Origin: Bradyrhizobium paxllaeri
GTDB taxonomy: Bacteria; Pseudomonadota; Alphaproteobacteria; Rhizobiales; Xanthobacteraceae
Reading direction: 5' to 3'
Length of the DNA stretch: 64,000 nt
Assembly (NCBI RefSeq): GCF_001693515.2
Contig: NZ_CP042968.1
Coordinates: 7,968,501-8,032,500, forward strand
The notes under the pieces were generated by a model that saw only the letters and a list, made by a program, of their open reading frames with translations, was not told the origin of the DNA and did not search any database. Shown one piece after another: positions 1-14,253 of the stretch (its first letter is position 1; every line of letters begins with the position of its first letter). Made by a program: the position numbers and the translations under genes.

Positions 1-666
1 CCGACACCGGGAATCTGCATGAAGCGCCGGCACAGCTCATGGCCGGCGACAAACCTGACCAGCAGCTCGTGCAGGCGGCAGTACTCCTTCCACAGCGCCG
101 CACGCGCATTGAGCATGGCGTCGATCAGCTCGGTGACCAACGCGTCGCCTGCAACCGCTGCACGGACCGCCTGCGCAAAGCCGCCGCGACCGGTGCCCTT
201 GATGCGGATACCGAAGCTCTTGATCGAATGCCGGATCGCGTTCTCGAGATCCAGAAACTTGCGCTTGAGGTTGCGCCGGTGCGTCAACAGCAGTCGTAGC
301 CGATAGCAGCTTTCGGTCTTGATATGGGCCTGGCGGAACCAGCCGGTGCGCATCAGGTGCGCCAGCCCGAGCGCGTCCGCCTTGTCGGTCTTGTTGCGCT
401 GCGCCGACATCGCCGCCCGCACATGCTGGGTCTCCAGACACACCGCCGGCAAGCCAAGCCGCAGCAGTTCGGGGGTGCAGCCAGGGCGACAGCGCGCCGG
501 CCTCGTGGCCGACCCGCCTGAGCCGGCCAAGATACGGCTTCAGCGCAAGCTTGATCGTGTCCGGGTCGGTCACCACCGTCACCTCCAAGGCCACCTCGCC
601 CTTGTCATCCACCACGCAAATCGCGGTCTCCTCCATCCCGACTTCCAGTCCGCAAAAGTATTCCAT
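1..666 (-). pseudogene. IS110-family transposase, frameshifted, cut by window edge
   Basis: Reading leftwards from the ATG at 666, the first 60 or so residues match the start of an IS110-type DEDD (RuvC-like) transposase. After the segment SPWLHP the frame breaks at a run of five G at 471-475: one base fewer restores the expected ELLRLGLP-type continuation. The later part, read in the corrected frame, ends at the window edge in a stretch encoding ELCRRFMQIPGVG, the usual start of the helix-hairpin-helix region. The first catalytic position reads GLEVG, where IS110 proteins normally have GLDVG, so a conserved Asp is Glu. Frameshift plus substitution point to a decayed copy; a sequencing error in the G run is the alternative for the frameshift only. 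Confidence 0.8.
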
Positions 667-1152
667 CGCGCGCCTCCCGTGTTGCCGAGACGGCTTCGGT
701 GGCGCCGCAACCGCGCCGTTTGATGGTCGCGGAGAAGGTTTTCCACCGCCTTGCCGATTACGGGCGGCATTCCTAATCGGGTGAGCAAAGTCAACTCATT
801 CCTACGCTTTTCTTCGACTCTTCGATCTTCCGCCATTTCCGCCTCCCTGCATCATCAACGCGCAAGCTTCACCACAGCCGCGACCGCGACGTGCATTCAC
901 CAGGCGGGGTCCATGCGTTCCTTCGCGTTCAGCACCAGGGCTGTCGCATGCTCTTCATCAGGTTCGTAAACAGGGCTGTCCAAGCAGTCCGGCGCTCTCG
1001 TCCCCGAAGGGCGGCAGCAGCAAGAGATAGCGGACATTCCCCGTTTCGCGGCCCCGCCAGGGGACGCTCACCGCGCGCGGATCTCTAATGTTGGCTCCTT
1101 TCAACAGGCTGGATGCAATCCCAGCGCTACCCTCTTGTGATGCACGCAGCAG
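667..1152. other. Gene-free stretch between two IS110 remnants
   Basis: No convincing gene is visible. Short open frames on both strands match no family I recognise and have no Shine-Dalgarno sequences. The segment probably contains the flank of the first IS110 copy and debris between the two elements. Confidence 0.5.
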
Positions 1153-1848
1153 CTACTGCGCCGGCTTCAACCGCAGCCGCTGCGTGACCTTGGCGCCAAA
1201 GCCGACGTGGAAGTCGGTTTCACTGACCCACATCCGATGCAATGCTCGCCAGCTTGCGCGCGACCGCGGTGATCGCGCACAGCATGCTCGAGCGTTTGGC
1301 GATCCGGAGGCCCCACGCCCGCAATGCCGACCATTTCCTAACCCGCAGCAGCAGGCTTGCAGCCGCCTCGCAAAGCGCCTCGCGCACAGCGACATCGCCT
1401 TGTTTGCTGATCCGACCTTCATTGCGCGCCGACCGTCCGCGATCGGGCAAAGCGACGGGGGTCGTCGACGCCGACCTTGAACGACAGGGCTGCAACGGGA
1501 CCGACGCCGGGAACTGTCATCAGACGTCGGCAGACAGCATCATGCTGGACCACCTGCAGGAGCACACGATGCAGCCGATCGTAGCCCTCGAGGATCGCGC
1601 GGCGCACGTCCAGCATGGCCTCGATACTCATCACAAAGATTGGATCGCTGCGCTCGATCAGCTCGCGGACGCGGGCTTCGTAGGCACCGCCGGCGACGGC
1701 TCCGACGAGCAACCCATAGGCCCGCAGCGCGCCACGAATGTGGTTTTCGAGGTCGATCAGTTTGCGCTTGAGCAGCTTCCGGTTGGTCAACGCTGCGGCA
1801 ACCCGCTCCTCAGCGACGTCGGTTGCTACCCGCAAGACAATGAAGACG
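1153..1848 (-). pseudogene. IS110/IS116-family transposase C-terminal remnant
   Basis: Translated leftwards from about 1848, the frame encodes the central part of an IS110 transposase (LTNRKLLKRKLIDLENHI, then PGVGPVAALSF, then DDPRRFARSRTVGA). The N-terminal catalytic half is absent. At about 1420-1440 the frame changes and the piece normally following TVGAH is missing, so GRISKQGDVAVREAL resumes directly. A second frame change at about 1240 leads to the terminal MWVSETDF segment. It is therefore 5'-truncated, internally deleted and at least twice frameshifted. It belongs to a different IS110 subgroup from the copy at 1-666. Its right edge lies immediately next to the stop codon of the large gene at 1849-5910. 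Confidence 0.8.
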
Positions 1849-4800
1849 TTACTCCCAGTCCAGACGCTCGGCACTCTGGTCATGGCGGAGTGCTTGAGCT
1901 TCGTAACTGTCTGCAAGCGTGTCGAGAGCCTTAGCGGTATGCGGATGGTCGAAGGAGATCGCCTTCGACCAGTTGCGGTACTTCGCAGCCTCCTTCCGCT
2001 CCAGATCTCCGCCATCGCGCGGCGATCGTGTTGTAACGCCGCGTCGATTACTTTTACCCGCTACAAAACCGTTGATCATCGGTTTGCTACGGAATAGATC
2101 GATCACATCGCGTACCGCCTCGGCCGGCCAGTTGCCGTCCGCTCCATTCTTGGATGCAGCCAAGACATTGCCTATCCGACTGTCGGCAATGTCTTCTCGC
2201 CCCGCTGCCTTGGCTAGCGAACGAGCTTCCTTGATCCAGGACTCCAGCGCTGTGCTATCGATTGTGCCGTCGTCCCGGGTTCCAGGAAGACGATCCCATT
2301 GTTCAAGCAACCGATAGGCGTGGCTGGCGACGGCGCGAGCCCGCTCGGGGTTTTCCGGTTCGGCGTCAACGACGCCGCTCTCCTCAGTCGCCTTGAATAC
2401 CACGCTGAGTATTTCAATGAAGAAGGATGGCTGTTCTGAGAGCGCTTTCATCAGAACTTTGGCTGGCCGGCGCGAACGAGCCAGGATCGGCAAATAGTCC
2501 CACTCGATCCTAATCAACGCATTACTGTCGACGTCGCCGCGTTCATCTAGATTCTGCAGGATCTCTGCGACGTAGTGCTGGAACATCGTTGCTTCGTTCA
2601 TGTCGCCCGTGTTTTCGAACGGCTGGCGTGCCGCCTCATGCAGGACCTCTAGGAGGAGATTGGACGGCAGATCAACCTTGCTATCGCGTCCCGCCAGCGA
2701 CAGGGCGTGACGAGCGCGTCCGACAGAAATGAGTTTGCGGATTGCGAACTCGACGTTTACATCCTCGCTCATCCAAAACACAGGCGTTCGACGCCAATAG
2801 CTTTCTTCGATTTCTGCACCAGCCTCGGTCGCTTGATTCCAGGTCCAGGGTTCAACCGGGAGAGCACGCAGGATTGTGAGCAGCGCCGTGTCGCCCCAGG
2901 TTTGCTCCTTTGCCCTAGCAATCAAGGCTGCGGCCCAAGGCTCTTTTCGATCTTGAAAGATATAGGCAATCAGACCGTGGGCGACGTCGCGTTCACGGCT
3001 ATTGTCGCTTCTAATGGCGGCTTCCAGCAACTGTTCGAGATCGGACTCAGAAAGGCCGCTCTCATAGAGAGCCTTGCCAATGTAGCCAGCGGCATCGACG
3101 AGGCGCGCGAGTGCAAGGACGGTTGCCACTCCACCTTCTGCGAATAGGACTTGTGCCGCTTCCTGCCGCGCCACGTCGACATCGCGTCGCTCTGCTTTCC
3201 AGCCTTCAGCAGATGGTCTTGGCAAAGCGACGGATTGCTCGAAGAGCCAAGCCACACGTTCAAGGGGATCGCTGGGCGCAAAGCGCGCGTAGATCGCATC
3301 AAGTCGGTCTAGTACCTCGCCAGGCAGAGACCATTCGGCATCCGGGAATTGCCGGTGGTGATGGAGCACGCGTCGCAGGCTTGTCCAAACGGCCGCGCGA
3401 TCAGCCTTCTTGGTGATCTTTGACTCTGCCGCATCCAGTGCCTCAAGCGCACGTTTAGTGTCGGGTACGAGATCGGCGAAACGATCGAGCAGCGCCGACC
3501 ATCTGGTGGAATCTGTGCCGACATCTGTGAGCAGGCGTTCAGTGATCGCCGTGGCCCCGCGAACCATCAGACCTCGAGTGACGATCTCGACCTCGTCGAC
3601 CGTGAAATCACGCCAACGCGGCATCGGTGACGGCGTGGACGTATCATGGCCTTGCGGCAGGACACCGAGCATCAACTTCCAGGCGGAGCCGCTCTCTTTT
3701 TTGCGGATCAGATCAAGCGCCTGAAGTCGTAGATCGAGAGGAGCATAGGTTTGTGGGATCCAGAGAAGATGGATCTCGCGAAGACTGTTCGCCGGTCTGT
3801 TCATGTATCGACCGGGTGGGTTGTCGATGGCGTCGAGACGAGCCAGGACGTGGGTCACTCGTGGCATTAGATGTGGCGACCAAGCCAGGGACTCCAGCGC
3901 CCAAAGCAAGTCAGACAGGTGTTCGGCACCGAATACACCTTCGCCGTCGGTGCCGAAAAGGGCACGAATGGGCGGATCGTGCAGTTCGAGGCTATCTTCA
4001 ATGGCGCTGAGAAACGCGGTAGGTGAAGCCTCCGCCAGCAGTTGGAAGTCCCGGGAAAGCGACCACCAGCGTTGTTGAGTCGCGTGAGCCAGGAGTTTAG
4101 CGACGATATTATTTGCGCGCCCTGGAGCATCGGGGACAGTACTGACTTCCTTACCCCAGAGGGCGAGCAGGATCAGCACTTGCCCGATTCCGTGACGCAT
4201 CATTCCCGAATAGGAGCGGCGGACGCCGCGGACGTCCGCCATCCAGCGTTCGTTCGGATCCATTTCGAAGCGTGGATCCGCAGAGCCGAGCACAGCGTGG
4301 GCCGAGGCTTCGAAACGTTGAATGTCGATGCGCGTCAGGTGCCGCGCGAGCAGGAACCATGCATCCTGCGGCGACGCGATGCGCCAGGTCGAACCGATCT
4401 TCTGCAATGGACTGTCAAATTTTCCGACGTAAGGCACAAGGGCGCGAATGACGGCTTCATACGGCTGGTCGGCGAGCTCTGCGAGCCGGGCTCGATCCGA
4501 CTCTGCGTCCTCGTCCCAGCCGCCCGCAAGTAGCGCCGCCAGCAAAGCTTGCGGCGGTGCCTCTTGCGCCCACTGAGGCAGGCGCCCCGGCGCGCTTGGA
4601 ATGAGACGGCGCAGGATTGCCAGATTGCGCGCACTGTCGCGCGCGTACGCCTCGGCACGAGGTTCGGCTATGCCTGCCGCGATCAAGGCGCTCGCGATCC
4701 CTTCGCGTGACGGTCGCGCGAGGGTGTGAACGTCGCCGCGGGAGACCGGTCGCTCATCATAAGCTTGCAGGACGTAGTGGCCGCGCTCCGCAAGCGACTG

Positions 4801-5910
4801 TGCCAGACCCGGTTCAGAGTCAGTCATAACTATAATCAAAGGCCCTGACGCCTGAGCCAGTGCCCGAGCGGCGGCAGCCGTCGTCGCCACCAAACAGCGG
4901 GCTCTATATGCCGCCGCCATATCTTCCGGCAGCATGGAGAGGGTCGCGTGGAAGAACGCCACAATTTCGTCTGTCGTGGTCGCTTGGAGAGAGAAAACAG
5001 ACGGCTCGTCGCGGAGCCAACGAAGAACGTCAGCGGCAGCTTGGTCCCGATCGCTCAGGGCCAGATCTTCTGTGAGCGGCCATTTGGTCGCCTGCGACCA
5101 TTCTTCCCAAATTTCTTCGAGCTCGCGTGTTCCTTCCGGTCGCTTCCCAAGGCGAACCGCCAGCCAAAGTCCGATCGCCGGTGTTTGTTCGATCCAATGA
5201 ACGAGGTCATCGGCGTCGTATGCGAGAACTTTCGCCCAAGGTCCTTCTGCCTCTCGCGCCTTGGCCCACTTATCCTTGCCGGGCCAGTGGCGGGGAGTGA
5301 CGAACACATAGGTGGCGTTGGTAGGATTGATCGGTTCGGGCGCCTTGGTTCGTTTGCGATAGTCCTCCGTTGCTTTCTTTTCGATTTCGCGACGCTGACT
5401 GCCGATCTCCCAGCCGGTTTCTCCCTGCGGGACGTAAGTGTTTCCGATCTCGATTTTGGTCCGTCCGTCCCAACCCGAGTGGAGAACACCCTCGCCGGCG
5501 GGGAATCGGAGGTATGCTGAGGGGCCAGACGTGGCGCGGATCAAATAAGCGAGGAGAGTTGGCAGGCTGGCGGCGCCATCAATTCGGTCTGCCCATTTTG
5601 AAAGATCTTCCGCATCCACCCATCGGATGGGCGCGCCAGGGCGTCCGGATGCGGTAATAATCGGGACGGCAGGCCCGATTACCGCTCCCGTTGGCAGGAA
5701 CCTGATACCGGCGCCCTCGAGCGCCGTGCGAATGGCTTGGGCATTGTTAGCGACCGGGGTCCGTTGCCCTCTCTCGAAATCGGCCACAGTCGAGGTCGAT
5801 ACACCGGCTTGCTTGGCCAAGTCCTGTTGGGACCACGCCAAAAGAGCACGAGCAGCCCGCACGAGCTTTGGGGAGAGGTCGAGTGGGGAACTTTGTTGCG
5901 CCATGGTCAT
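1849..5910 (-). CDS. Large HTH (XRE) protein with nuclease-like domain and helical C-terminus, putative defence protein
   Basis: 1353 residues. Residues 16-72 form an XRE-type helix-turn-helix (QQDLAKQAGVSTSTVADFER). Residues about 97-250 look like a restriction-endonuclease-like domain: an acidic E140, the GWDG motif with D148, then WEIG with E168 and lysines at 178-179, followed by YVFVTPRHW (201-209) and a YDADDLVHWIE stretch. This pattern occurs in large, poorly described nuclease proteins of defence islands. The middle (about 265-560) resembles the NTPase part of a STAND-type protein, but I see no GxxxxGK[ST] Walker A. The remaining 800 residues look all-helical, like a repeat scaffold. 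Start ATG at 5910; a second ATG at 5904 is possible and neither has a clear Shine-Dalgarno. It is divergent from abiEi, sharing an 85-base promoter region. Function in phage defence is inferred from context and architecture. Confidence 0.75.
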   Translation of the reverse strand: MTMAQQSSPLDLSPKLVRAARALLAWSQQDLAKQAGVSTSTVADFERGQRTPVANNAQAIRTALEGAGIRFLPTGAVIGPAVPIITASGRPGAPIRWVDAEDLSKWADRIDGAASLPTLLAYLIRATSGPSAYLRFPAGEGVLHSGWDGRTKIEIGNTYVPQGETGWEIGSQRREIEKKATEDYRKRTKAPEPINPTNATYVFVTPRHWPGKDKWAKAREAEGPWAKVLAYDADDLVHWIEQTPAIGLWLAVRLGKRPEGTRELEEIWEEWSQATKWPLTEDLALSDRDQAAADVLRWLRDEPSVFSLQATTTDEIVAFFHATLSMLPEDMAAAYRARCLVATTAAAARALAQASGPLIIVMTDSEPGLAQSLAERGHYVLQAYDERPVSRGDVHTLARPSREGIASALIAAGIAEPRAEAYARDSARNLAILRRLIPSAPGRLPQWAQEAPPQALLAALLAGGWDEDAESDRARLAELADQPYEAVIRALVPYVGKFDSPLQKIGSTWRIASPQDAWFLLARHLTRIDIQRFEASAHAVLGSADPRFEMDPNERWMADVRGVRRSYSGMMRHGIGQVLILLALWGKEVSTVPDAPGRANNIVAKLLAHATQQRWWSLSRDFQLLAEASPTAFLSAIEDSLELHDPPIRALFGTDGEGVFGAEHLSDLLWALESLAWSPHLMPRVTHVLARLDAIDNPPGRYMNRPANSLREIHLLWIPQTYAPLDLRLQALDLIRKKESGSAWKLMLGVLPQGHDTSTPSPMPRWRDFTVDEVEIVTRGLMVRGATAITERLLTDVGTDSTRWSALLDRFADLVPDTKRALEALDAAESKITKKADRAAVWTSLRRVLHHHRQFPDAEWSLPGEVLDRLDAIYARFAPSDPLERVAWLFEQSVALPRPSAEGWKAERRDVDVARQEAAQVLFAEGGVATVLALARLVDAAGYIGKALYESGLSESDLEQLLEAAIRSDNSRERDVAHGLIAYIFQDRKEPWAAALIARAKEQTWGDTALLTILRALPVEPWTWNQATEAGAEIEESYWRRTPVFWMSEDVNVEFAIRKLISVGRARHALSLAGRDSKVDLPSNLLLEVLHEAARQPFENTGDMNEATMFQHYVAEILQNLDERGDVDSNALIRIEWDYLPILARSRRPAKVLMKALSEQPSFFIEILSVVFKATEESGVVDAEPENPERARAVASHAYRLLEQWDRLPGTRDDGTIDSTALESWIKEARSLAKAAGREDIADSRIGNVLAASKNGADGNWPAEAVRDVIDLFRSKPMINGFVAGKSNRRGVTTRSPRDGGDLERKEAAKYRNWSKAISFDHPHTAKALDTLADSYEAQALRHDQSAERLDWE

Positions 5911-5995
5911 AAGAAATATATGACATCAGTTGAAGTTTCCCAACTGTTCTTTTTTGTCGACAAGCTACTTATTTTTGCCGACAATAGATAACAAC
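5911..5995. promoter_or_regulatory. Divergent promoter/operator region between HTH-nuclease gene and abiEi
   Basis: This 85-base gap must contain both promoters. It holds an inverted repeat, CAGTTG-N8-CAACTG, at 5927-5946, and two direct repeats, TTTTTGTCGACAA (5951-5963) and TTTTTGCCGACAA (5972-5984), differing at one base and spaced 21 bases apart, i.e. two helical turns on one DNA face. AbiEi-type antitoxins are known to repress their own operon by binding repeats in the promoter, and the divergent gene has its own HTH. Which protein binds which repeat is inference. Confidence 0.55.
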
Positions 5996-6610
5996 ATGGC
6001 TGAACGTCATATAAATCATCGTCAGAACGCACTCAGTCTCATCCGAGATCGAGGAATTGCGCGCGCACGCGATTTCAAGGCGGCAGGCATCCCGCTGGTC
6101 TATCTGAAACGCATGACCGATGCCGGCGACATTGTCCGTCTCGGCCGCGGCCTTTACCAAATCCCTGAAGGAGTCGGCGAGGATATCGCCCACGATCTGG
6201 CGGAAGCGGTGCGCCTCGTGCCGAACGGAGTCGTCAGCCTGGTCAGCGCACTTCGCCACCACGAACTGACCACCCAGCTCCCGCACGCAGTGTGGATGAC
6301 CATACCTCACAAAGCCCGGACACCAAACATCAAGGGCCTGCGGCTCGAGATTGTCCGCGCGACAGGCGCAGTCCTTACCGCGGGCGTCGACCATCTTCGA
6401 GTCGAAGGAGTTGATGTGCCGATCTACGGCGTTGCGAAAACAATCGCCGATTGCTTCAAACATCGCCGCCACGTTGGCGAGGATGTCGCGATCGAGGCGC
6501 TCCGAGACGCCCTGCGGCTCCGGAAGACCACGGCGAGCGAGCTCATGAAATATGCGGCCATCGATCGGGTCACCGCACGGATTGAGCCCTACATCAAGGC
6601 GATGCAGTAA
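5996..6610 (+). CDS. abiEi: AbiEi-family antitoxin / transcriptional regulator
   Basis: 204 residues from the ATG at 5996. An in-frame upstream start at 5930 exists, but the extra residues are not AbiEi-like and would run through the operator repeats. The N-terminal part (ALSLIRDRGIARARDF, then the GDIVRLGRGLYQIP strand-turn) is the winged helix-turn-helix of AbiEi antitoxins. The C-terminal half (VPIYGVAKTIADCFKHRRHVG, then EALRDALR) is the characteristic AbiEi antitoxin domain. The stop codon overlaps the next start by one base (TAATG), so toxin and antitoxin are translationally coupled. Family role: type IV toxin-antitoxin and abortive infection, with autorepression by the antitoxin. Confidence 0.9.
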   Translation: MAERHINHRQNALSLIRDRGIARARDFKAAGIPLVYLKRMTDAGDIVRLGRGLYQIPEGVGEDIAHDLAEAVRLVPNGVVSLVSALRHHELTTQLPHAVWMTIPHKARTPNIKGLRLEIVRATGAVLTAGVDHLRVEGVDVPIYGVAKTIADCFKHRRHVGEDVAIEALRDALRLRKTTASELMKYAAIDRVTARIEPYIKAMQ

Positions 6611-7530
6611 TGGCCAAGGTCCTCAGGAATCCTGCGGCGTCGATCAGGGCGCGCCTACTTGCTCACGCCAGACAGCACAATGACGACTATCAGCGCATCC
6701 TGACGCGTTATGCGATCGAGCGGCTGCTCTTCCGTCTCAGCCTGACGGAAGCCGCCGGGAGATACGTGCTCAAGGGTGCGATGCTGTTTGTGACCTGGCC
6801 GGAGCACGTCTTCAGGCCAACCGGCGACCTCGACCTCCTCGGCCAAGGTGACTCCGACCCCGCCGCAATTACTGAGCTCTTCAGCCGAATTTGCCAAGTG
6901 GAAGCCCCGGACGACGGCATCATCTTCGATCGAGCCAGCTTGAGGGTCGAGCAGGTGCGTGAAGAGGACAAGTATCAGGGCGTCCGGCTGAGCCTCAGGG
7001 GCGAACTGGCAAGGGCGATGATTCCAGTCCAGGTCGACATTGGTTTCGGCGATCACGTCTACCCGCGACCGACACGCCATATTTTTCCGAGCCTTTTGCC
7101 GGACCTGCCGGCGGCGAACATCCTGATGTACCCGCCCGAAACCGTCGTCGCAGAGAAGTTCGAGGCGATGATCCGCTTCGGGGTGACAAATGGCAGGATC
7201 AAGGATTTCTATGATATCTGGGTCACGCTCCGTACATTTCCATTCGACCTGTCGGGACTGGTGGAGGCCGTCGGCGGAACGCTTCGCCGACGAGAGACCG
7301 CCATCCCGGCCGAGATGCCTGTAGGCTTGATGGACGAGTTCGCGAGGATCACCGAAGAACGCGGTCATTGGACCGGCTTCCTTCGCCGAAATCCGCCGAC
7401 GATCGAGCCACCACCTTTTGCGGAGCTTCAGGTGGAGCTGCGACGCTTCTTCGGTCCCGTGATCGACGGCCTCGCCGTGCCGGAAGGCGCCCAGGGTCGA
7501 TGGGATCCGGCCGCCGGAGCTTGGCAGTAA
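6610..7530 (+). CDS. abiEii: AbiEii-family nucleotidyltransferase toxin
   Basis: 306 residues. The nucleotidyltransferase signature is intact: KGAML at 55-59, the metal-binding pair in TGDLDLLG (D73, D75), the VDIGFGD strand at 142-148, and the AEKFEAM (181-187) and KDFYDI (198-203) motifs typical of AbiEii/AbiGII toxins. The length fits the family. In known AbiE systems this toxin is bacteriostatic, is restrained by AbiEi without stable complex formation, and aborts phage infection. The ATG overlaps the abiEi stop. 84 bases downstream begins the large nuclease-like gene on the same strand, which could be cotranscribed. Confidence 0.92.
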   Translation: MAKVLRNPAASIRARLLAHARQHNDDYQRILTRYAIERLLFRLSLTEAAGRYVLKGAMLFVTWPEHVFRPTGDLDLLGQGDSDPAAITELFSRICQVEAPDDGIIFDRASLRVEQVREEDKYQGVRLSLRGELARAMIPVQVDIGFGDHVYPRPTRHIFPSLLPDLPAANILMYPPETVVAEKFEAMIRFGVTNGRIKDFYDIWVTLRTFPFDLSGLVEAVGGTLRRRETAIPAEMPVGLMDEFARITEERGHWTGFLRRNPPTIEPPPFAELQVELRRFFGPVIDGLAVPEGAQGRWDPAAGAWQ

Positions 7531-7614
7531 AGCTTGCTTGTTCTGAACTTCCACCCGGTGCGTTGTTCGCTACAAGAACCAACTCAGGCAGGCTCTGCAA
7601 CCTGAAAGAACAGC

Positions 7615-10600
7615 GTGAACGAAAACACAGATGACCCGTTCGAGGACATGCCAGTGCCTTTTAGTTTTGGCACAGTGCCGCTCGATGTTATTAGTCAAGA
7701 GTGCGCAGAGCTTCTAACAGCAATCGAAGCGTATGATCCCTTGAGGCTTGCAAGCTGCTTTGGCGGCCTTCTTTGCGAACCGTTGTTACAAAGTAACTGT
7801 GTGCGCCTGGAAACACTGGTGCATCTTTCTCTTGCCCGCGCCAAAGGATCAAAGAAGCCGAACGAGAAGATCGTCCAGCGCCTGTTCGAATGGATTGGAA
7901 GCAGTTCTGTCGGGATGCTCGAAGATCCCGCAGAGGATCTCTTCGTAAGCCTAATTGTAACACCCCGCGGAAACTTCAGGGTGCTGGAAGGCATTTGGGA
8001 ATCCGCGGGTTTTCATACCCAGCGCGTTGTGAAGGCCCTCGATCTGCTGCCGCCTTACCCCCGGTTCAATAGCATTAAGGATTACGTGTATGAGTTGCTA
8101 CGGCTTTCAGACCTTGTGTGCGAACGTGCATCGCTGAACCGCCTAACGGAAGGGAGCACGATTCCTCAGGAGAAGATTTCGTCGGCTGTCTTAGGGCGGT
8201 TGTCATCCGTTCGACGCCGTATTCGCTTTTCGGAAGCGGACCTTGCCGAAAGCGGGATATCGTTGGACCAGCTCGGTCCCTTCGCATTCGACCCTTCGAA
8301 GCGTGCTGACCTGACTACAGACAAGATAGGCCACTCAAGTCTAGAGCGTTATCCGTTGCTCTACCGCAACGGTGATCTCTACTTGCTTCTACCGACAGCG
8401 ATCACCTCTGCCATTCGTCGTTTTGTCATCGAACAGATGGATACGCCCCAATTGCGAGATGCTTTTGCGGGAACACTTGCCTTTGAGCTGGCGACATCAG
8501 TATCGAAGATTCCCTTACTCGGTGAAAGAACGGGAGCTCCGATAGAGTTCAAGAAAACGGACAACGGCCTTCTTGCTGGCATCATGACCGCTGCTGATCG
8601 TGGAATATATCTGAACTTCGTTTTCTTCGCTGACACGCTTGATCACTTCGAGGATGACGGTCTGGTTGGAGTTTATCCCCGCGACACCCCCGAGAGACTT
8701 GTTAAAGATATCGAGCGCTGGATTGATGAGGCATACGGAGCCGTTGTCGGCAGGCGCGACTTCAGAGCCGGGGTGACATTGCTGGTGAGCAGCGGGATCG
8801 GTCGTGCCATGCTGGATCTCACACCGAAGAAGTCTTGGGCGAGTTGGCAAGTTGAGGCCGTTGGGGCTTCCGATCTCTTCACGTTGAGTTGGTTGCCAGA
8901 TTTCAAGCAGATGTCGTTGTGGCGCTTGCTGAAGGGCCGAGAGAAACTGGAATCGATCGGCATCAATCTATTCAACGTAAACGGGCTTTTGAACCTTATT
9001 GCATGGTCACGAATGCTCGGCGGCCATCTTGTCCCTCACGCTAGTCTACCGGAACAATTTATCGATGCTAGCACGAAGCGCATGATCTTTGTTGAGCAGA
9101 ATGCGCTACTCAAAGTGCGCCAAGAAGCAATAACAACCTTCGACGAACATGCATGCCAGTTTATAGATGGCCGTTTCTTCGTTGTCCGTCGCACAGGGGA
9201 ATCCATCTTTGAAGAAGATCAAGCGCGGCCCTTCTATGTTGCGGAAGACTCAGACAGCCGCTGGCCAAAATCGGTTTACGAGACCACGCGCCGCGCTTGG
9301 TGGGTACAACTGGAGACGACCGATGCTACGGCGGGCCAGTGGGCCTACCAGCGCTTCCAGATGCTAAAGACGTGGATTTGCCTTTCTGCTCCGATACTAG
9401 ATACGGAATTCCCGGCGTTGCCGGAAGGGCCGATACTTTGGCGGGCGAAGTTTAGCGGGGAGCTGGGTGACAAGCTCGGAAGAGGCGAAAGGGAGTTCCT
9501 CGATCTAGAGAGGACTCTACCATTCATACGCGCAACTATCGACTCGCCGATCCTCGCAATGGAAATCGAAGAGGGTTTCGAGCAAGCGATATTCAACCCG
9601 GAGAACGTCGCAGAACGAGCACTTGTGACAAGGCTGGTGGAAGCCGTTTTCGAACTTGCGGGCCAACCTGTCGATGTCAGCAAGCGCGACAATATTATCG
9701 CAAGGATCGTGACCAGTCCGCAGGCGCGTCAAAGCCATGCATTCATGGCCCGGAACTTCCGCGATTACGTGCGCAGATCGATCAAGCCGTCACCAGTCAA
9801 GATCGATGTGGATGATGGCGCTATCGTGAAGCTCGGTTTAGGTTGGCGAGTTCGCAATCCATCCGAAGGAAGTGAAGTAAGGGGCCGCGAGGAATGCACG
9901 TCCTATCTTAACGCCGTCGTTCGCATCCTAGAAGACGAAATATGTGATGAACTGAGAACATTGGATCGGCGAGCGGTTATTGATTTTGCGCTCACGAACC
10001 ACGAGAGCGCAATGGCTGATCGAGACAACTGGCGCCGGACCTCCGCCGCTGTCGTCGCGCTTCATAGGGATAAAGCGGCCACGCTCTCGACAATCGCGAT
10101 CCATGAAGCAGAATTGAATGCCATCTTTCAGGCAACCCGCCTTATGATTGAATTTGCAATCTGCGAATGCCCTGAAACAGGCGGCAGGCGTCCCGGCAAC
10201 TTTGACATGTCCAGCATGATGTCGAAGATCATGCTGACTTGCGGACTGGGCGGATGGTCCGATGCGATACACTGGCAAGCCATGGAGCCTCTCGTCCGGA
10301 TCACCCCGCTTGGTGACATCCACGCCAATGTTTCGTTCCACGAGGAGATTCTTACGCCGTATGGGCAGGCTGCCACCGATCTTACGGTTCAGGACAGTAT
10401 AAAAAACTATGCCGTAAATCTGCAAGAACGAACGCTTGATGATGGCAGATCAGCGCAGATCGAGCCGGAATTCGTGGAGGCATTTGAAGAGCAGTTCGGG
10501 GCTTCGCTCGAACTCACGCGCCTCTTCGTAGACGGCATCGAAAATATGGGCTTCAAACGCGAGCGTGCGATTTTCCCAGTCAAACGTTCAGAGCTCGTCA

Positions 10601-11391
10601 GAGAAATGATCGACGGGGCGTCCCTTGACGAAAGGGCCGTGGAAAAGCTCTTGGAGTTTCTGACTTTTAAAAGCCGCCCGCGCTGGCGCGACGTTCCCGA
10701 CGGGTTTTCCGACAATGACATTTTCCCGTGGAGATTTAGGCGACGGCTGTCGCTATTGCGCAGACCACTTGTGCAAATGGACAACTCAGAAGACCCGATC
10801 GTCTTGATAGCGCCCGGCATTGTGCGCGATTCTTTCGGTTATATGTTCAGACAGTATTACACAGGCGATTTTCCACGATGGCAACTCACGGCGAAGATGA
10901 ATAGGTGGGCTGGCAGATCCCGAGACCGAATGGGTTCAAAGTTCAGCGAGGAAGTCGCGTCGAAGCTCCGAGAACTTGGCTGGAGCGCAGAAGCCGAAGT
11001 AAAAATCACGAAGCTGCTCCGCAAGGGTTTTGACCGCGACTACGGAGATGTTGATGTACTAGCATGGAAGCCCGGTACAGCACGCGTATTGCTGATCGAA
11101 TGCAAGGATGTCCAGTACCGGAAGACGGATGGCGAAATTGCGGAACAATTGCTCGACTTTCGTGGCGAGTTAAATGCGGAAGGCAAACCTGACCTCCTGC
11201 TCAAGCACCTGAACCGCGTCGCGATGATCGAACAGCATGTGCCAGAAGTAATGAAGTACGTGCGGCTCGATCAAACCCCGAAGCTTGAACCGTTGCTTGT
11301 GTTCAAGAATCCGGTGCCCATGAAATTTGCATGGGCGAGAATGGAGGAGCGGGTGCCACTACGCCTGTTTTCTGACCTAGCGAGCCTTTAA
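7615..11391 (+). CDS. Large protein with C-terminal PD-(D/E)XK nuclease motif, putative defence protein
   Basis: 1258 residues from a GTG at 7615, preceded by a weak purine-rich stretch. The first 1100 residues match no family I recognise; they look mostly globular with no transmembrane segments and no obvious Walker motif. From about residue 1107 to the end is a restriction-endonuclease fold: an acidic helix (FSEE, near 1112), GDVDVL with D1147, then LLIECKD with E1162 and K1164, i.e. a D-x14-ExK active site as in Mrr/VRR-type nucleases. The gene follows abiEii in the same direction after 84 bases. Codon use is visibly more A/T-rich than in the chromosomal genes to the right, consistent with horizontal transfer. 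A DNA-degrading defence effector is the best guess. Confidence 0.8.
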   Translation: MNENTDDPFEDMPVPFSFGTVPLDVISQECAELLTAIEAYDPLRLASCFGGLLCEPLLQSNCVRLETLVHLSLARAKGSKKPNEKIVQRLFEWIGSSSVGMLEDPAEDLFVSLIVTPRGNFRVLEGIWESAGFHTQRVVKALDLLPPYPRFNSIKDYVYELLRLSDLVCERASLNRLTEGSTIPQEKISSAVLGRLSSVRRRIRFSEADLAESGISLDQLGPFAFDPSKRADLTTDKIGHSSLERYPLLYRNGDLYLLLPTAITSAIRRFVIEQMDTPQLRDAFAGTLAFELATSVSKIPLLGERTGAPIEFKKTDNGLLAGIMTAADRGIYLNFVFFADTLDHFEDDGLVGVYPRDTPERLVKDIERWIDEAYGAVVGRRDFRAGVTLLVSSGIGRAMLDLTPKKSWASWQVEAVGASDLFTLSWLPDFKQMSLWRLLKGREKLESIGINLFNVNGLLNLIAWSRMLGGHLVPHASLPEQFIDASTKRMIFVEQNALLKVRQEAITTFDEHACQFIDGRFFVVRRTGESIFEEDQARPFYVAEDSDSRWPKSVYETTRRAWWVQLETTDATAGQWAYQRFQMLKTWICLSAPILDTEFPALPEGPILWRAKFSGELGDKLGRGEREFLDLERTLPFIRATIDSPILAMEIEEGFEQAIFNPENVAERALVTRLVEAVFELAGQPVDVSKRDNIIARIVTSPQARQSHAFMARNFRDYVRRSIKPSPVKIDVDDGAIVKLGLGWRVRNPSEGSEVRGREECTSYLNAVVRILEDEICDELRTLDRRAVIDFALTNHESAMADRDNWRRTSAAVVALHRDKAATLSTIAIHEAELNAIFQATRLMIEFAICECPETGGRRPGNFDMSSMMSKIMLTCGLGGWSDAIHWQAMEPLVRITPLGDIHANVSFHEEILTPYGQAATDLTVQDSIKNYAVNLQERTLDDGRSAQIEPEFVEAFEEQFGASLELTRLFVDGIENMGFKRERAIFPVKRSELVREMIDGASLDERAVEKLLEFLTFKSRPRWRDVPDGFSDNDIFPWRFRRRLSLLRRPLVQMDNSEDPIVLIAPGIVRDSFGYMFRQYYTGDFPRWQLTAKMNRWAGRSRDRMGSKFSEEVASKLRELGWSAEAEVKITKLLRKGFDRDYGDVDVLAWKPGTARVLLIECKDVQYRKTDGEIAEQLLDFRGELNAEGKPDLLLKHLNRVAMIEQHVPEVMKYVRLDQTPKLEPLLVFKNPVPMKFAWARMEERVPLRLFSDLASL

Positions 11392-11733
11392 TGCCGAGGG
11401 CAGGTGGAGATGGACATCTCCGAGGCCTGCTCGTCGGCGCCGAAGGCGGCCGATGCCCGCTTGGCATTCTCGATGGAGCCGGTCACACCTTTGCGCCGCG
11501 AGACCTATTCGATCGCTCGACGGACGTGCTTTCCTCACAAGAGCCAAGCCGTCCCGGCGGTTAGACTCGGACGGTGAGGAATATAACGAAAGTGGTTGCC
11601 GCCCTGTCTAACCGGTGATCGTTGGTATCGGCAGAAAAGACATTGATACTCTCCTTCATTTCCAAAATGATAAGTTGTCTTTTCAATGCCGGCCAGGTGG
11701 CTATTCTCACCTGAAGCCGCCAAACGGCGGTGA
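11392..11733. other. Gene-free stretch downstream of the nuclease gene
   Basis: No gene with a recognisable product or translation start is visible. The first 180 bases are G/C-rich and read as coding debris on the minus strand (a short segment GVTGSIENAKRASAAFG without a start); the rest is A/T-richer and featureless. It may be a decayed island gene. Confidence 0.4.
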
Positions 11734-11982
11734 TCATTTTCTATCGGATGCGGCGCGGCTGCGCCGAACCGCTTCTGCTGCCAGTCGGCGTTCGATGTAG
11801 TCGTTGATCGATTTGACTGTGATGCGTCGCGATTTGCCTTCGGTATAACTCTCCAACTCGCCCGTGTTGATAAGTTCGTACAGTTTTTTGCGCGAGACTT
11901 GGATCGCCCTCATCGCCTGATTCGGCGATGCTACGAGCGGGGCTTCCAACGCGATAGGCATGGCGCGAGACATACAAAGCAT
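11734..11982 (-). CDS. Helix-turn-helix protein, excisionase-like
   Basis: 82 residues from the ATG at 11982; the frame is open to 12033, and another ATG lies at 11973. The core (QAMRAIQVSRKKLYELINTG, then SRRITVKSINDYIERR) is the MerR-like winged HTH of excisionases and small DNA-binding proteins, in which the protein recognises DNA and often acts as recombination directionality factor. It lies 247 bases downstream of the integrase on the same strand, a usual position for such a gene. Whether it excises this island or regulates neighbours cannot be told from sequence. Confidence 0.75.
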   Translation of the reverse strand: MLCMSRAMPIALEAPLVASPNQAMRAIQVSRKKLYELINTGELESYTEGKSRRITVKSINDYIERRLAAEAVRRSRAASDRK

Positions 11983-12229
11983 CCTGTTGTTCCCGGATGT
12001 TTCTGAGCCTGCCAGAACGGATTGACGGCGCAAAGCCCTCAGGGGACTACGCGCATTTTCGGATGCTAAGTCGCATGGCTTCGCGCTCGTTACGGTCTAC
12101 GGCTTCCATTTTTGTTATGATCGAGTACTTCCCAATCGTCCCGAACCCGCTGACAAAACGATTGGGCAAAACCAAACGCCTTGCGAATTGGTTTTGCGTT
12201 TGAACGAAGGTCGAGCTGCCCAAGATAGA

Positions 12230-13453
12230 TCAACCCACCTCGCCAAGGCGGATAACGTCGGATCCTTGGAGGAATTGCGCCCAATCTTTCATGAGGGCGC
12301 GTCGCTTCTCGAGCTTTTGCCCGCGCTGGTAGGCTGCCGTGGTCTCCGATTTGTATTTGTGCGCCAGCGCTGCCTCGCGAACTCCATCAGGATAGTCCGT
12401 GCATTCTTCGGCCCAGGTTGCGAACGTCGAGCGAAAGCCGTGCACCGTGACGTGGCCGTAGCCCATGCGGTCCAGCACGGCGAGCATCGCATTCTCCGAA
12501 AATATTCCGCCCTCGGGATTCGGGAAGATCAATTCGCCCTCGGCGCCATCGTGGATCTCGTCCAGGATGGCAAGAGCGGGAGCCGACAACGGCACGACGT
12601 GGTCCTGGTTCATCTTCATACGTTCGCCGGGGATCTTCCAAGCGGAGGACAGCCGATCGATCTCGGACCGGCGGGCCTCTACTACTTCGTTGGTACGGCA
12701 GGCCGTGAGGATGACAAAGCGCAGCATCGTTGCGGCTGTGCCGACTGCCGCTGCAAGTTCAGTCACGAATTGCGGTGCCTCGGCATAGGGCAGTGCAGGA
12801 TGATGTCGGACGACGCGTTTCGGTCGCCTTGGAAGCTTCTCGCGCAGCTGTTTAGTGAGCCCGGCGGGATTTCGAAAATCGGTATCGTCAACATCGGCGT
12901 TCTTCGCGATGATGGTTTCGATCCGTCCGCGGACACGATTAGCCGTCTCTCGCTTCTCAACCCAGATCGGCCGCAACAATTCGTAGACGTGGCTGGGCTT
13001 GATTTCCGGGATCGTGAGTTTTCCGATTGTCGGGTAAGCGTACCGTTTGAGCGACGATGGCCATTGACTGCGATGCTTCTTGCTCCAGGTCGACCAGTGC
13101 TCGCGTATGTAGATTTCTGCGCACTGCTCGAAAGTAGGCAGGGTGACCTTGGTCTCGACGGCTTTCGCTTCCTCACGCGCCGCTCGCTTCTCCTGCACGA
13201 TGTCGACGCCGGGTGTGCTGCGATCGCCTTTGACGCGAAGACGCGCTGCATCGCGAGCAAACCGCGCGTCCTTTAGCGACACGTCCTTGACCGACCCTAG
13301 GCCGAGCCAGCGCTGCTTGCCGTCTTTCCAGTACCGGTAGCTCCAGTTCTTCGATGTGGCACTCGCGATGACAAGGTAGAGACCGTCGCCGTCGGGGTAT
13401 TTGCCGGGCCGAGTTTCGCGTTCGACGTCGAGCGGCTTGAGCTTGCCGGGCAT
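12230..13453 (-). CDS. Tyrosine-type site-specific integrase (P4-like)
   Basis: 407 residues. The N-terminal part (DGDGLYLVIA, then WSYRYWKDGKQRWLGLG) is the DUF4102 arm-binding domain of P4-type integrases, followed by a core-binding SAM-like region (about 105-195). The catalytic domain holds R253 (ACRTNE), the box H338-G-F-R341, H365 (LAHKYK) and the nucleophile Y375 (AAYQRG), so all active-site positions are present. It starts 165 bases from the 3' end of tRNA-Ser and is transcribed in the same direction as the tRNA, as expected for an island inserted there. It should catalyse integration and, with the HTH protein, excision. Confidence 0.93.
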   Translation of the reverse strand: MPGKLKPLDVERETRPGKYPDGDGLYLVIASATSKNWSYRYWKDGKQRWLGLGSVKDVSLKDARFARDAARLRVKGDRSTPGVDIVQEKRAAREEAKAVETKVTLPTFEQCAEIYIREHWSTWSKKHRSQWPSSLKRYAYPTIGKLTIPEIKPSHVYELLRPIWVEKRETANRVRGRIETIIAKNADVDDTDFRNPAGLTKQLREKLPRRPKRVVRHHPALPYAEAPQFVTELAAAVGTAATMLRFVILTACRTNEVVEARRSEIDRLSSAWKIPGERMKMNQDHVVPLSAPALAILDEIHDGAEGELIFPNPEGGIFSENAMLAVLDRMGYGHVTVHGFRSTFATWAEECTDYPDGVREAALAHKYKSETTAAYQRGQKLEKRRALMKDWAQFLQGSDVIRLGEVG

Positions 13454-13618
13454 GCGTTCTCCATCGCGAAAATCCGTCCTCCGAACCCACGGGCAAAAGC
13501 TACAGTTTGCGCGGTGACTAGGGGTAACATCGCGGCACTAGCCGCGACAGCCATTGTCGCGCTACTCGTTGTTTTTGCTGTCGATTCGAACAATCGGATA
13601 CAGAGGAGAACAGTGTAG

Positions 13619-13708
13619 TGGCGGAGAGAGTGGGATTCGAACCCACGGTACGGTTTCCCGCACACACGCTTTCCAAGCGTGCGCCTTAAGCCACTCGGCC
13701 ATCTCTCC
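13619..13708 (-). tRNA. tRNA-Ser (anticodon GGA)
   Basis: The reverse complement folds as a class II tRNA: acceptor stem GGAGAGA pairing with TCTCTCC, a D-arm with GAGTGGCTTAAGGC, anticodon loop TTGGAAA giving GGA, a long variable arm, a T-arm with GGTTCGAATCC, then an encoded GCCA end. Length is 90 bases with CCA. The anticodon and long variable arm identify serine. Its 3' end is the likely attachment site of the adjacent island and has been kept intact. Confidence 0.95.
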
Positions 13709-13908
13709 GGAGGCCCTCTCTTGAAGGGGCAGGAGTGATTTTGCAAGGGACGCCGGGCAACGCGGCTAAAATTTCCCCAATTCATTGAATTTGTTTGGCA
13801 ATTCGGAGCGTTCCGGCATCGGATAATTGGCGCTTTGCCGGGGCTTGAACCGGAATCCGGCCACGATCGATGGCGATAGATGGCAGCGCAACTGGTGGAG
13901 GACGCATA

Positions 13909-14253
13909 ATGATCGCACGGACGCTCTTGCTCTCGGCTCTGGCCGTAACTTTCGCAGGCACCGCGGCCAGCCCGGCGCTGGCGCAGGCCTGCACCAAGCA
14001 GGGCGTGGACGTGACCTGTGACGACGGCCGGCGCGGCATCTTTGCGGGCGACTCCATCGTGTGGGCCGACGGCTCGAAATCGAGGCTGGCCTCGCCGCAT
14101 CCGAGCGTCATCATCGGCAACAAGTCGTCCGTCGTCATCGGCCCCGGCGTGTTCGCCGGCAACGGCAAGGGCGGTTACGTGCCGATGGAAAATCCGAGCG
14201 CGCCGAACAAGGCGCGCTGCCCGGTGCTGGATGGCGTGTCGTATTGTTATTGA
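13909..14253 (+). CDS. Small secreted protein, unknown function
   Basis: 114 residues. The ATG at 13909 is chosen because a GGAGG lies seven bases upstream and the product then begins with a typical signal peptide (LLLSALAVTFAG, cleavage near PALAQA). The mature part contains four cysteines (CTKQGVDVTC near the start, RCPVLDGVSYC at the end) that could form two disulfides, and a repetitive VIIGNKSSVVIGPGVFAGN segment suggesting beta structure. No enzymatic motif is visible. It is the first gene outside the island, 200 bases from tRNA-Ser. Confidence 0.75.
   Translation: MIARTLLLSALAVTFAGTAASPALAQACTKQGVDVTCDDGRRGIFAGDSIVWADGSKSRLASPHPSVIIGNKSSVVIGPGVFAGNGKGGYVPMENPSAPNKARCPVLDGVSYCY

Follow-up and report, generated by a model that had tools for sequence, protein, structure and literature searches.

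A divergent Upx-family protein with a predicted C-terminal PD-(D/E)XK nuclease domain on an integrative element of Bradyrhizobium paxllaeri

Can a function be assigned to a gene of 1258 codons when only the end of its product seems recognisable? The question was raised by an open reading frame (ORF) at 7615..11391 on the forward strand of a 64,000-nucleotide stretch (the window) of the Bradyrhizobium paxllaeri genome (contig NZ_CP042968.1, positions 7,968,501 to 8,032,500). The ORF proved intact. An earlier note, made from the sequence alone, had described an intact nuclease motif at the end of a protein whose first 1100 residues matched nothing known to the reader. For the libraries the latter statement did not hold, as the whole length could be assigned by PADLOC, NCBIfam and the structure 9wuf to Upx, a defence family that has already been described and whose structure has been solved. 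Upx, a name which we take to mean 'uncharacterised (P)D-(D/E)-XK defence protein', was reportedly first described by Gao et al. in 2020.

The PADLOC Upx model (PDLC02221) matched residues 22–1244 over profile positions 29–1255 of 1271 with 833.8 bits (E 4.9e-251), and the NCBIfam model 'anti-phage protein Upx' (NF042954) matched residues 21–1239 over profile positions 10–1223 of 1240 with 949.7 bits. The sole PDB chain matched by sequence was 9wuf (E 4.4e-174; profile search E 6.9e-277), titled 'Cryo-EM structure of Upx' with a release date of 2026-02-11. The predicted fold of the window protein matched the overall fold of 9wuf from residue 59 on, at 28–30% identity in structure alignments. 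Pfam gave no family above its cut-off, three matches at E 0.05–0.1 all being sub-threshold; the listed homologues bear the precomputed label PF28173.1. A profile search against defence collections, as proposed in the earlier note, therefore led to a defence family and gave no non-defence assignment. With a full-length profile match, the 9wuf fold, intact PD-(D/E)XK residues and no obligatory partner, the protein is, on sequence grounds, a divergent member of the Upx family and thus of an already described kind. It is not filed as the curated NF042954 equivalog because its 949.7 bits stand against a cut-off of 1900. This cut-off was cleared by three of the seven homologues tried, from Xenorhabdus, Photorhabdus and Achromobacter (L041, L060 and L062), and was missed by L027 (1688.2 bits) and by L010, L056 and L073 (455–882 bits).

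The motif D1147...E1162-x-K1164 was found at the residues given in the earlier note. A D-x(14)-E-x-K string by itself has little meaning, and its conservation is the test. When 186 proteins including that of the window were aligned, the three residues proved near-invariant, each being kept in all 185 rows with a letter at its position; the single row without one was P0089, a protein of 1120 amino acids (aa). Although 63 of the 186 rows came from loci retrieved by two patterns, one of which covered ECKD, 119 were database homologues selected without the motif, and all of these except P0089 kept it. G1144, D1145 and R1201 were constant like the motif residues, while E1174 and H1198 were kept in 183 and 184 of 185 rows, respectively. 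The AlphaFold2 (AF2) model of the nuclease domain alone, with a predicted local distance difference test (pLDDT) score of 87.5, revealed an alpha-beta-beta-beta-alpha-beta core with D1147 on the second and E1162 and K1164 on the third core strand (the VIA rows likewise), which is the core with D, E and K at the canonical places that marks the PD-(D/E)XK superfamily. A profile search of PDB sequences with this domain returned 9wuf at E 9e-61; three other rows, at E ≥ 0.07, looked like chance and were rejected, and the viral structure library gave no match below E 1e-3. Fold neighbours of the domain included 1y88, FokI, McrC, MspJI, NucS/EndoMS, Hjc, CRISPR ancillary nucleases and LmuA. The modelled C-terminal domain thus shows a PD-(D/E)XK fold with intact motif residues and is a predicted nuclease. 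Of the DNA-cutting effector put forward in the earlier note, the C-terminal nuclease domain is supported by the modelled fold and the motif; the cutting itself belongs to the mechanism proposed below.

Outside the nuclease, the alignment revealed conserved residues at E103–D108, N664, E667, R705, H708, E846 and R1043. Among these, N664, E667, R705 and H708 were kept in 183–186 of the 186 aligned proteins and lie in or just past the possible zincin-like region (Table 1). The HExxH zinc motif was absent from the window protein, and the string occurred anywhere in only four of the 186. It is a rather doubtful proposal that Upx carries here a second conserved site on a degenerate zincin-like module, which would serve as an infection sensor or as a second enzyme switching the nuclease on.

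Table 1. Positions in the window of the upx-like gene, its parts and the neighbouring features.
Feature	Coordinates	Strand	Basis or remark
upx-like gene	7615..11391	+	1258 codons; likely start GTG 7654, giving 1245 aa; PADLOC, NCBIfam and 9wuf matches
N-terminal and middle regions, residues 1–1080	7615..10854	+	9wuf fold from residue 59
Possible zincin (M1/M61 peptidase)-like fold, residues 515–704	9157..9726	+	without HExxH
Possible winged-helix-like part ahead of nuclease, residues 945–1105	10447..10929	+	weak structure match
PD-(D/E)XK nuclease domain, residues 1093–1258	10891..11388	+	alignment, AF2 model and structure comparison
Nuclease motif D1147 (11053–11055), E1162 (11098–11100), K1164 (11104–11106)	11053..11106	+	185/185 rows with a letter
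AbiEi antitoxin/regulator	5930..6610	+	upx neighbour; no sign of partnership
AbiEii nucleotidyltransferase toxin	6610..7530	+	upx neighbour
Tyrosine integrase of the element	12230..13453	-	
tRNA-Ser(gga), insertion site	13619..13708	-	chromosome common to congeners stops at 13619

The best overall explanation, which we consider likely, is a divergent stand-alone Upx with N-terminal restraint and cue recognition, whose nuclease cuts DNA when released. The N-terminal and middle part of about 1080 residues would keep the nuclease inactive and would recognise an infection-specific cue, either a form of phage DNA or a phage protein; the released nuclease would then cut DNA, with phage DNA as the most likely target. 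Since no Walker A string was found in the window's copy, and no methyltransferase gene recurred as partner among the neighbour clusters of 66 loci, the protein is expected to need neither ATP-driven translocation nor a modification-based self mark of its own. Such a mechanism of N-terminal restraint and sensing with C-terminal DNA cutting goes beyond the nuclease fold and the family membership.

The lack of a recurrent methyltransferase partner is also consistent with modification-dependent (type IV-like) restriction, in which the N-terminus would read modified phage bases and the C-terminus would cut, with no autoinhibition step. The likeness of the C-terminal domain to restriction and other nucleases (1y88, FokI, McrC and MspJI rows) and the weak winged-helix-like match ahead of it point the same way. 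However, a Walker A string is absent from the window's copy, and neither a CARF/SAVED nor a modified-base-reading fold appeared for the N-terminus among the best 50 rows of the whole-model structure comparison, which fall mostly in two regions and barely cover the N-terminal parts; we regard this alternative as unlikely. A comparably low chance is given to an abortive-infection effector, whose nuclease would degrade host DNA on sensing infection so that cell death precedes phage release. In its favour, abortive infection is a frequent mode of action of large defence proteins that end in a nuclease, and the fold neighbours include CRISPR ancillary nucleases and LmuA; the CRISPR ancillary nucleases, however, align over the nuclease only and not over their CARF sensor. 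The chances given to these two alternatives overlap partly with that of the stand-alone Upx explanation and do not sum to one with it.

The homologue search revealed 377 homologous proteins at E ≤ 1e-3 among 7991 scored candidates, the best 120 of which were listed. A scan of genome contigs, limited to the best 80 of its 84 matches, gave 75 loci, mostly from Proteobacteria with single ones from Verrucomicrobia, Acidobacteria, Planctomycetes, Gemmatimonadetes, Spirochaetes and others. In a FastTree tree of 107 of the 186 alignment rows, the window protein paired with P0003 (89% identical) and then with further proteins, one of them from Rhizobium; its branch is largely alphaproteobacterial and separate from that of Photorhabdus, Xenorhabdus and Achromobacter. 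Carriage among relatives is patchy: four of 60 genomes held the family, namely the window's own, three of 35 congeners and none of 24 others, and the four copies were not one clade, as G009 grouped with a Methylocapsa copy and G022 with Sphingomonadales copies. The copy of the congener G032 is identical to that in the record of Bradyrhizobium sp. dw_411, and their integrases lie at the same places, so that these two seem to be a single genome. Phage records gave no tblastn match to the window's Upx; matches occurred in 7 of 72,556 plasmid records, none reaching 80% query coverage.

The window's upx copy sits on an integrative element at tRNA-Ser. Comparison with congeners revealed that the common chromosome ends at the 3' end of this tRNA gene (13619) and restarts near window coordinate -54100 in G001, after 2.2 kb of unshared sequence, and in G024, after 1 kb; in G023 it restarts at -56317. 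The element is therefore about 67.7 kb long. An attachment (att) repeat, sought as another copy of the tRNA 3' end at no more than three mismatches, was not found in the window, and the only other genomic copy, with three mismatches, lies at 4.33 Mb. As no clear direct repeat was found, the left end was placed by the congener comparison. The tRNA was the only Rfam match in window positions 1–14000. The G+C (guanine plus cytosine) content was 53.5% for the upx gene against 61% for the element and 63–64% for the flanks. The position of the gene in an integrase-bearing island and directly after abiEii, as given in the earlier note, was borne out, with AbiEi, AbiEii, the integrase and tRNA-Ser all located. 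A related integrase region, about 85% identical over 12261–14253 and 11731–12111, occupies the same tRNA-Ser in G019 (L091), where the remainder of the 19.9 kb examined had no match to the window's element; tRNA-Ser therefore looks like a recurrent insertion site. At the far end of the window's element, which lies outside the window, an IetS subtilase was found (E 1.2e-112; about -52333 to -49075, L095:7667-10925), and an IetA-type match occurs among the element's ORFs, presumably next to IetS.

The neighbourhoods of Upx genes were surveyed at 66 loci. ORFs of 100 aa or more were picked mechanically, and the two closest on either side were taken, which gave 234 ORFs in two batches of 117. Phage_integrase was found in 9 of the 234 (six and three per batch) versus 0.61 expected (Poisson 2e-8). 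For the expectation, 34 genomes totalling 176.4 Mb were used, in which 354 matches occurred; they comprise the genomes behind 31 loci and same-genus genomes with one duplicate dropped. The enrichment is conservative because this background was counted at a less strict threshold than the neighbours. The largest neighbour cluster within 10 kb, seen at 9 of the 66 loci, contains ORFs matched by the window's integrase. Defence neighbours, counted from 25 of 364 and 25 of 402 matched families, included type I methyltransferases (6/117), specificity subunits (4/117) and mad5 (4/117) in one batch, and mad3 (3/117), GajA (2/117) and capP (2/117) in the other. Judged from these loci, Upx is a single gene without an obligatory partner, and its homologues share no one common housekeeping context, so that this refuting outcome named in the earlier note did not arise, although single neighbours are sometimes housekeeping genes. 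Such neighbours, and the repair nucleases NucS/EndoMS and Hjc among the fold neighbours, would suit a DNA-repair or other housekeeping nuclease with no defence link. This is highly improbable in view of the patchy distribution, the mobile element, the integrase enrichment and the description of the family as anti-phage. A defence role of the window protein is supported by its Upx family membership and mobile-element context, as far as sequence comparison reaches.

As separate observations at these loci, a gene for a 1375-aa Avs2 protein lies directly downstream of the divergent Upx of L073 (Sphingomonas), with a homologue at the same place in L071 (Sphingomonadales). The verrucomicrobial loci L056 and L058 hold distant Upx homologues (24–25% identity) among genes common to both, and the batch holding them contains matches to type I methyltransferases and to specificity subunits; a link of these two copies with type I restriction is possible.

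Several points weigh against a divergent Upx with a defence function. The NCBIfam score, about half the equivalog cut-off, is so far below it that a function identical to that of the Upx equivalog is not guaranteed. Outside 9wuf, Foldseek on the nuclease domain reached only E 3e-3 or worse. The defence-neighbour counts stand without a matched control, and housekeeping neighbours were also seen, namely alpha-amylase/CBM_48 (2/117) and photolyase (1/117) in one batch, and an outer membrane efflux protein (2/117) with ribonucleotide reductase, a glutamate-type dehydrogenase and enoyl-CoA hydratase (1/117 each) in the other. Among the literature matches listed, survey mentions alone were found, and neither a study of the Upx mechanism nor the 9wuf paper was among them. 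According to excerpts of these sources, Upx is nearly confined to one hotspot of PAGI-1 islands (PMC12629846), occurs together with qatABCD in an integrative and conjugative or integrative and mobilizable element (PMC12824646) and is mentioned in a survey table (PMC10855318). The upxY/upxZ genes in an excerpt of PMC11300592 are unrelated to Upx, and the main text of PMC13367071 has no occurrence of the name.

The immediate neighbours of the window's gene suggest a further explanation, a single functional operon of AbiEi, AbiEii and Upx. The abiEii and upx genes lie on the same strand with a gap of 84 bases, and a consensus scan found no promoter-like site on the + strand between them. However, a search of 78 other Upx loci with the window's AbiEi and AbiEii gave no match at E 1e-5, although some of these loci have short flanks and a distant AbiE would be missed, and AbiE recurs instead with a 1353-aa helix-turn-helix (HTH) gene in three relatives. 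The joint operon was therefore rejected as very improbable. The 1353-aa protein, encoded at 1849-5910(-) and divergent to AbiEi-AbiEii (5930-7530(+)), has an N-terminal XRE HTH as its only recognised part. Its homologues numbered 640 at E ≤ 1e-3, the best 120 listed being 68–100% identical, with named hosts among Alpha-, Beta- and Gammaproteobacteria. In three of the eight other relatives' loci (L099, L100 and L101, one of which belongs to another family of the order), divergent AbiEi/AbiEii of 74–78% identity lie beside a 67–69% identical HTH protein; in the other five, where the HTH protein is 30–52% identical or partial and flanks are short, the window's AbiE was not found. The HTH gene is a candidate third component of an AbiE-type locus.

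The start of upx is less certain than its reading frame. The true start is probably the GTG at 7654 and not 7615, because the database copy of the window's Upx, of 1245 aa, begins at residue 14 of the ORF, and GAGGA precedes this GTG at 7 bases. With the assignment given here, the window gene is settled as not an orphan. The Upx family, with its 377 homologues, spans far more divergent proteins than the equivalog model names, and its alignment is deep enough to indicate non-nuclease residues whose mutation could probe phage sensing.

Compared with known systems, the window protein resembles Upx (PDLC02221; NF042954; 9wuf) in full length, overall fold, motif residues, lack of a recurrent partner and mobile context, and differs in its 28–30% identity to 9wuf, its score at half the NF042954 cut-off and its place in a separate, largely alphaproteobacterial branch. 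AF1548 (1y88), XisH-like proteins, Can2/Card1/Cdn1 and FokI share the nuclease core but are comparable over the C-terminal part only; in the whole-model alignment, the Can2, Card1 and Cdn1 rows covered only the nuclease. The AbiE type IV toxin-antitoxin system lies directly upstream of upx on the same strand, but it belongs to another protein family, and the window's AbiE was not found beside the Upx genes of the 78 other loci searched.
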